This document shows, piece after piece, positions 40,154 through 42,540 of a stretch of 64,000 bases of DNA. The stretch is from Eggerthellales bacterium. GTDB taxonomy: Bacteria; Actinomycetota; Coriobacteriia; Coriobacteriales; Eggerthellaceae. Both the position numbers and the translations under genes were made by a program. The notes under the pieces are model-generated. The model was not told the origin of the DNA, made no database searches, and saw only the letters and a list, made by a program, of their open reading frames with translations. The stretch lies in assembly GCA_029225085.1 (NCBI GenBank), contig JAQXVU010000052.1:1-64000 (forward strand), written 5' to 3'. The stretch's first letter is position 1, and every line of letters begins with the position of its first letter.

Positions 40154-40529
40154 AGCTCTCCCCTTCCGTTGCAATTCGAGCCCATCTTAAGACGGCCGGC
40201 CATCGCGCGGCATTTGCAGTGCGCGACACCATACGGCTTGCACGGTCCCGGCCATCGCACGGATTGTGCGATCCCGACCATCGCGTGGCTTCCGCGACCG
40301 CAATCCTTACTTATATATAGTAGTTGCGAGAAATGCGCCAACAGTCCCAAACCCGCAAAGCGTGCCATTCCATCAAATCCCTGAACCTGCCCAGAAGAAA
40401 GCTCGCTTCAGGGACGAAACCCCAGCAAGAGGCTACTATGGGCACCATGCACAACCATTCGCGATTCACCGTCGCGTAAATCGTCCGCAACGACAACCAA
40501 CAACGACCACTCATCACAAGGAGAAGGAC
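40154..40529. other. Repeat-bearing intergenic region before the aspartate-dehydrogenase-like gene
   Basis: This 376-bp stretch holds the 26-bp hairpin repeats (40196-40299) and an AT-rich TATATATAG stretch near 40312 that may contain a promoter. The open frames here lack ribosome sites and family signals. Confidence 0.65.
40196..40299. repeat. 26-bp hairpin repeat array
   Basis: Copies starting CCGGCCATCGC or CCGACCATCGC occur at 40196, 40248 and 40274, the last two exactly 26 bp long and adjacent. Each forms a small hairpin whose stem bases change together: TCGCGC/GCGCGA, ATCGCAC/GTGCGAT and TCGCG/CGCGA. Confidence 0.72.
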
Positions 40530-41312
40530 ATGGGCAAAACTCGTTTGGCAGTCATCGGCTGCGGCATGCTGGGAAACGTCCTGGTAGATGCCTATAATCA
40601 GGGGCTTTTAGAAGATTATGAGATCGTCGCCGTTCTGGGACGCACTCCCGAAAAAGCCCAGGCCCTGGCAGAGAAAGCCAACTGCGCTGTGGCAGGAGAC
40701 ATTAACGAGCTGCTGTCCTTCAAGCCCGATTACGTCGCCGAAATGGCCTCAGTAGAATCCGTCCGGGACAACGCCATCCCCATCCTGAGAAGCGGCGCGA
40801 ACTTCGTCGTCCTCAGCATCGGCGCCTTTGCCGACAAAGATTTCTACGAAGAGGTTGCCGCCACCGCCAAAGAGCACAACGCAAAGGTGCACATTGCCTC
40901 TGGCGCCGTTGGCGGCTTCGACGTGCTGCGCACCATCTCCCTCATGGGCTGCTCCCGCGCCTATATGGAAGGCCACAAGAACCCCAAAGCGTTGCAGAAC
41001 ACCCCTCTGTTCACCGAGGATCTCATGACTACCGAGGATGCCGTCGCCTTCGAAGGAACCGCTAAGGAAGCCATCGCCTTCCTTCCCACCAAGGTGAACG
41101 TCTCTATCGCCACCGCCCTCGCAACGGTAGGCCCGGAGAATCTGCAGTTCAGTATCACCAGCACCCCGGGTTTCGTGGGCGACGATCACCACATCGTGGC
41201 AGAGGGACCTGGCGTTAAAGCTGACCTGGATATATACTCAAGCACCGCCGAAATCGCGGCCTACAGCGTAGTCGCCGTCCTGCAAAACGTGGCCTCACCC
41301 GTGATGTTCTAG
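40530..41312 (+). CDS. nadX: Aspartate dehydrogenase-like protein
   Basis: This 260-residue protein has a Rossmann start AVIGCGMLGNVLVDAY and the family block HIASGAVGGFDVLRT. Conserved elements LPTKVNVSIATALATVG and STPGFVGDDHHIV of the NadX/aspartate-dehydrogenase family follow. The enzyme would convert L-aspartate with NAD(P) to iminoaspartate or oxaloacetate, serving NAD synthesis or aspartate breakdown. An AAGGAGAAGG site precedes the ATG; a longer upstream frame has no start signals. No nadA or nadC gene is next to it, which leaves the role open. Confidence 0.82.
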   Translation: MGKTRLAVIGCGMLGNVLVDAYNQGLLEDYEIVAVLGRTPEKAQALAEKANCAVAGDINELLSFKPDYVAEMASVESVRDNAIPILRSGANFVVLSIGAFADKDFYEEVAATAKEHNAKVHIASGAVGGFDVLRTISLMGCSRAYMEGHKNPKALQNTPLFTEDLMTTEDAVAFEGTAKEAIAFLPTKVNVSIATALATVGPENLQFSITSTPGFVGDDHHIVAEGPGVKADLDIYSSTAEIAAYSVVAVLQNVASPVMF

Positions 41313-41421
41313 CCCAAGATTTCGTCACCAGACACAATTTGCGGGCACGAAAAAGGACATTTCGTCAAGAATGGGTAATATTTCTGGCATAAACTATACA
41401 CTCTTCATACAGATTTCCTAT

Positions 41422-41543
41422 TATGTAGTTTTATCTACATATGGGAAGAAATAGAGAGAAATTCCAGCGTTTTCTGACGGGAAACTGCTAGCCTTCCCTT
41501 CCCATGAAGCAAAGCCCTGGCGCAATGACGCGTCGGGGCTTTT
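41422..41543 (+). ncRNA. Candidate small structured RNA
   Basis: Several stems line up. TATGTAG/CTACATA (41422-41428 and 41435-41441). ATGGGAAG/CTTCCCAT (41441-41448 and 41498-41505). An inner stem AGCGTTTTC/GGAAACTGCT with one bulge (41466-41474 and 41480-41489). A strong terminator follows at 41511-41542. No gene begins within 500 bases downstream, so it looks like a free-standing RNA and not a leader. No known family was recognised. Confidence 0.5.
41511..41542 (+). terminator. Terminator of the candidate small RNA
   Basis: The arms AAAGCCCTGGCGC and GCGTCGGGGCTTT pair over 13 positions with two G-T wobbles, then TTTT-rich sequence follows. Confidence 0.82.
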
Positions 41544-42048
41544 CTATGATCGCACGCATGCGGGCAATACGACACTCGCCACTGGGCCAAACCGGCGCAT
41601 ATTCCATAAAACATGCTTTTACCTGGGAAAACGATAAATTATTTACACAGTCTCCTCGGGAAGTTGCATTTCCGCCCCTCGTTCACCCCCGCAAGACGAG
41701 GACAGAGAGCGTGTCGAAGAGACCCTTCGAAAACCCGCGGAACTGCCCTTACGACAGCGGGGGATTTAAGAGCCATCCACCTTGCCGAAAACAACCCGTA
41801 TATTTTGTGGAATCCTCTGAAATCGGGGCTCCTCCCCCGCCAAGACCTAGACAACCGATACTATGTATGCATCGCGAGAGCCGAGTCCGCCTGAAGGCGC
41901 TGGCGCAGACGCAGCTATGCATGCGTAAGGTTCCCGATCGATCATCCCCCGTGAATCACATTCATAGCACTCCTTGTACGCCCCTTAGGGCGCATTTGGC
42001 GTGCCCTGAGGCGATGGTCGGCTTTATTGGCCTATCAAGGAGATGCTT

Positions 42049-42540
42049 TTGAACAGCGATAGTAAGCGCTTCAGCGCAGCAATTATGACGGTTGGCATTA
42101 CCGCCGTACTGGCTCTGGCTCTGTTTGCCGTGACCCTCCTCTGCCCTTCCAGCGCGGAAGCTAAGACCAAGGTCACCTGGAACTCCCCCGTGCAGTGCTC
42201 CTACTACACCGAATGCGGAGCTCGCACTGCCAGCGGAACCGCCGTCACCTCGAAGAGCATGGGCGTTGCCGTCCCCTACAACAAGGTCGTCTCTAAGAAG
42301 ACCTGGAAGAAGGGATCGAAAGCCTACAAGCGCTCCCATTTCTACTATGGCGAGAAGCTGGAACTGAAGCACGGTAAGCGCACCGTTAAAGTGAAGGTAG
42401 TAGACTGCGGCGGCTTCGGCTACTGCGGCCAGTACTACAAGGGCAAGTGGGCACCTCGCCTCTTCGATCTGCAGATCGCGGTGAAGAAGAAGCTGAAGTG
42501 CGGCAGCACGGACATCATCACGTGGCGAATCATAAGCTAG
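42049..42540 (+). CDS. Secreted double-psi beta-barrel (RlpA-like) protein
   Basis: This protein of about 163 residues has a signal peptide (cleavage near SSAEA-KTK). A mature domain resembling a double-psi beta-barrel follows: CSYYTECGARTASGTAV, a hydrophobic middle strand, VKVKVVDCGGFGYCG and RLFDLQIAVKKKL. Relatives bind or cut peptidoglycan. The AAGGAG site lies directly against an ATG (42043) but six bases from TTG at 42049, so TTG is the better start. A terminator follows. Confidence 0.72.
   Translation: MNSDSKRFSAAIMTVGITAVLALALFAVTLLCPSSAEAKTKVTWNSPVQCSYYTECGARTASGTAVTSKSMGVAVPYNKVVSKKTWKKGSKAYKRSHFYYGEKLELKHGKRTVKVKVVDCGGFGYCGQYYKGKWAPRLFDLQIAVKKKLKCGSTDIITWRIIS

Follow-up and report, generated by a model that had tools for sequence, protein, structure and literature searches.

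Candidate transcript end and two predicted alternative RNA folds downstream of an aspartate-dehydrogenase-like gene in an Eggerthellales bacterium

The AspDH locus

The window analyzed here, a 64,000-nt stretch of DNA from an Eggerthellales bacterium, carries an aspartate-dehydrogenase-like gene on its plus strand (AspDH; 40530–41312), which is monocistronic by position. Its product matches the Pfam domains NAD_binding_3 and Asp_DH_C (PF03447, 3.3e-17; PF01958, 4.7e-14) and the NCBIfam model for aspartate dehydrogenase, the latter with a score under the curated cut-off. A gap of 730 nt separates the AspDH stop codon (41312) from the next gene, which lies on the same strand and encodes a small secreted-looking protein (42043–42540). 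This gap contains the feature under study, which starts at 41422, 110 nt past the end of AspDH and on the strand of that gene. The original prediction had stated that, a distant AspDH-like gene apart, no gene ends just upstream; this was only partly fair, since AspDH ends at this short distance, on the same strand and with no other terminator candidate in between.

A search of the 137 other genomes of the family found no copy of the AspDH gene, whose relatives are in Hungatella, bacterium 1XD21-70, and Holdemania (51–61% identity). The absence from the family, together with relatives in Hungatella-like Clostridia and Holdemania, suggests from sequence that AspDH was acquired horizontally. We rejected the synteny of AspDH as a source of comparison for the feature, as the relatives in Clostridia and Holdemania have different sequence on their 3′ side and other neighbors. 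On the 5′ side of AspDH, in the divergent promoter region (40196–40295), a 22-nt repeat occurs three times, imperfectly, as CCGGCCATCGCGCGGCATTTGC and variants of it at spacings of 52 and 26 nt; these are possible operator repeats. At the other end of the gap, the leader of the secreted-looking protein gene (41950–42045) folds with −37.3 kcal/mol (z −2.86; 2 of 200 shuffles as stable), and within it CTCCTTG pairs with the CAAGGAG ribosome-binding site, like a translation-controlling leader. This leader has no Rfam match and only weak and partial DNA matches in the family, and the open reading frame at 41504–42052 (182 amino acids) has no Pfam match.

The predicted terminator and the competing folds in front of it

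The feature includes a strong plus-strand hairpin with a T-rich tail (41511–41548) that resembles other gene-end terminators of the window. Its arms (41511–41523 and 41530–41542) form 13 pairs, two of them G-U, and the tail that follows GGGGC reads TTTTCTAT if counting begins at the G+C portion of the stem. The stretch 41506–41546 folds with −24.7 kcal/mol (z −4.98 in a shuffle test). A stable G+C-rich hairpin is followed straight away by a T-rich tract, as expected of an intrinsic terminator; going by sequence and predicted folding, a terminator hairpin and tail are present. The automatic terminator scan listed none here, probably because it extended the stem into the T run, while a separate script detects the hairpin. 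With this script applied to the first 400 nt past the AspDH stop codon and the automatic scan to the rest of the gap, the hairpin at 41511–41542 is the sole terminator candidate on the coding strand of AspDH between 41312 and 42043. At 198 nt, it lies farther from the stop codon than any other convincing gene-assigned terminator of the window; most of them lie 7–68 nt from a stop codon. Another observation was that the sequence abutting the terminator, TATGATCGCACGCATG (41543–41560), recurs without a change in a relative (L005, about 1520–1535), where it follows an unrelated terminator; it may be a −10 promoter element where terminator and promoter adjoin, or the recurrence may be due to chance.

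All stems named in the original prediction, and the 13-bp terminator, were located in the sequence where it had placed them. On the plus strand, the first stem, TATGTAG/CTACATA (41422–41441), has arms at 41422–41428 and 41435–41441; the second, ATGGGAAG/CTTCCCAT (41441–41505), pairs 41441–41448 with 41498–41505 at 100% complementarity; and the inner stem, AGCGTTTTC/GGAAACTGCT (41466–41489), joins 41466–41474 to 41480–41489 by nine pairs with one bulge. The claim that the three stack in front of the terminator held less well. The first stem lengthens outward to TTCCTAT.ATGTAG/CTACATATGGGAA (TTCCTAT.../...ATGGGAA, 41415–41447), and as RNA this extended 5′ hairpin, UUCCUAU.AUGUAG/CUACAUAUGGGAA, of which the first stem is the inner part, reaches −13.8 kcal/mol (z −4.84). 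Because it needs the same ATGGGAA as the second stem, the two exclude each other.

Which of them forms is predicted to depend on where transcription starts. In partition function calculations, transcripts starting at 41200, 41313, or 41371 adopt the extended hairpin with a probability of 0.97 and the second stem with 0.0, so that in RNA derived from AspDH ATGGGAAG would pair upstream and not with CTTCCCAT. With a start at 41420 or later, the second stem forms with a probability of 0.89–0.98 (0.97 for a start at 41431–41433), while the inner stem stays at 0.23–0.63 whatever the 5′ end. The proposed architecture therefore depends on the transcription start, since the second stem forms solely with a 5′ end at about 41420 or beyond, and in these models the stems are two alternative folds and not three stacked ones.

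How far this folding exceeds chance differs between the parts. The whole of 41431–41546 has a z score of −3.87, with none of 200 dinucleotide shuffles as stable, and in a scan of 1,280 stretches of 116 nt on both strands of the window the z score of the feature, −4.45 from 20 shuffles, falls at the 0.7th percentile; several of the better-scoring stretches are gene-end terminators too. The signal is carried mainly by the terminator and by the 5′ hairpin at 41415–41447, whose z score (37 nt) was obtained with ends chosen after the fact. Taken alone, 41441–41508 does not go beyond chance (z −1.31; 24 of 200 shuffles equally stable), and 41420–41508 and 41410–41508 score −2.47 and −1.68, so that structure 5′ of the terminator ranges from −1.3 to −2.5 with the ends chosen. 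The portion between the two hairpins, which is the one that would define a distinct RNA, is thus weak.

Searches for related sequences

A search of the whole window against Rfam at the gathering score gave no family match to the feature, and at E up to 10 the region 41300–42060 returned chance-level matches alone, none of them credible; the Rfam comparison that the original prediction had put forward as a check thus brought up no known family. DNA searches of the source genome, 138 family genomes (48 genera, with no other species of the source genus included), and 398 class genomes found no relative, just short terminator or chance matches. The best outside match (G029, L005; 89% over 35 nt) covers the 3′ side of the terminator and the TATGATCGCACGCATG after it, behind an unrelated gene. 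No DNA match to the stretch was found among phages, plasmids, and viral contigs, and an origin in a mobile element was rejected on this ground. A covariance model built from the single sequence and the proposed structure did return weak matches in four relatives, G090, G091, G083, and G084 (E 2e-5 to 0.007). These are ordinary terminators; the 5′ part of each match falls within an unrelated coding frame or at its end, and we rejected them as homologs because the terminator alone fits and the remainder of the model falls over those frames. With no relative in the genomes searched, comparative support for the structure is none. A literature search returned nothing on this stretch.

Readings of the feature

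Taken together, we lean towards reading the feature as the place where the AspDH transcription unit ends, an ordinary case in which a long 3′ untranslated region leads up to an intrinsic terminator. As the hairpin is the sole terminator candidate before the next gene, we infer that AspDH transcription reaches it, and this makes the end of the AspDH unit the leading reading. Beyond its stop codon the AspDH transcript would have about 230 untranslated nucleotides, folded into the hairpin at 41415–41447, then loose structure, and then the terminator, near whose predicted end (41545) RNA polymerase would stop; the 5′ hairpin would be at most a 3′-end stabilizer. The terminator is strong and belongs to the type seen at other gene ends in the window, 41441–41508 is without significant structure, there is no Rfam family and no conservation in the 138 family and 398 class genomes, the best promoter match (9 of 12) occurs at chance frequency, and no Hfq gene was detected. 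Against this reading stand the 198 nt between stop codon and terminator and the promoter-like composition of 41350–41449 (31% GC). If it is right, little changes: the end of a transcription unit is marked, in a genus without another member among the genomes compared.

The same long distance and AT-rich upstream region (about 57% GC in the surroundings) speak for a free-standing small RNA, which we regard as possible but doubtful. A suitably placed promoter-like pair, TATACA-18-TATTAT (41395–41424, plus strand), would put the transcription start at about 41431–41433 and yield an RNA of about 113 nt ending at 41545, in which ATGGGAAG/CTTCCCAT closes a long stem-loop; this is the start that favors the second stem, and the fold from there on exceeds all 200 shuffles. 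However, the pair is a weak, sigma-70-like match of 9 of 12, the best in the region, and the scan gave two sites (this one and a mirror on the minus strand) where 1.0 is expected by chance. Apart from the terminator the structure is near chance, neither Rfam nor the genomes, phages, plasmids, and viral contigs searched hold a homolog, and the genome has no detected Hfq gene, although small RNAs occur in bacteria without Hfq. A small RNA of recent origin is not refuted by the lack of homologs. The TATGTAG palindrome would, with a start at 41431–41433, lie across the −10 region, and it could be a DNA operator over that promoter-like site rather than an RNA stem; a repeated operator was rejected, as TATGTAG-N6-CTACATA has a single exact copy in the genome. 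The pyrimidine-rich CCUUCCCUUCCC could pair with purine-rich ribosome-binding sites, and it has 14 near-matches within the window against 6.8 in shuffles, all with 2–3 mismatches. The original prediction took an independent small RNA for the simplest explanation, which no longer holds, given that AspDH has no other terminator candidate and the internal stems are near chance. Should it prove real, the small RNA would be specific to this lineage, in a genome where no Hfq gene is detectable. It is tempting to speculate, as a long shot, that such an RNA has two exclusive folds, the UUCCUAU/AUGGGAA hairpin and AUGGGAAG/CUUCCCAU, between which AspDH read-through or its own promoter chooses, with the CCUUCCCUUCCC pairing stretch exposed or hidden accordingly.

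Alternatively, the AspDH 3′ untranslated region may be processed to a stable RNA or serve a double duty, with the hairpin at 41415–41447 protecting the messenger. The dominance of this hairpin in AspDH-derived transcripts and its stability for its composition agree with this, but it has no comparative support and boundaries set after the fact, and we consider it improbable. The least likely reading is a very small gene that has a terminator to itself and would resemble a type I toxin messenger or a small membrane peptide; the candidate is a 27-residue open reading frame (MGNISGINYTLFIQISYYVVLSTYGKK, 41371–41454) that is partly hydrophobic and ends in GKK. In its favor, the frame is open and moderately hydrophobic in the middle, a terminator lies downstream, and the minus strand bears the mirror promoter-like site; however, chance alone would give an open run of 27 codons in AT-rich DNA, no ribosome-binding site sits at a suitable distance (a GGA stops about 13 nt short of the ATG), and neither a Pfam match nor a relative was found.

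Among known systems, actinobacterial Hfq-independent intergenic small RNAs with C-rich seeds (6C RNA type) resemble the feature in being short and terminator-ended with a pyrimidine-rich stretch, here CCUUCCCUUCCC; unlike them, it matches nothing in Rfam up to E 10, is not conserved, and has its C-rich stretch outside the loops. Compared with the Rho-independent terminators that end transcription units, the 198-nt distance from the stop codon is beyond what is typical in the window, whereas the G+C-rich 13-pair hairpin, the A-rich upstream arm, the T-rich tail, and the position 3′ of a gene on its coding strand are alike, and the kind matches the others in the window.
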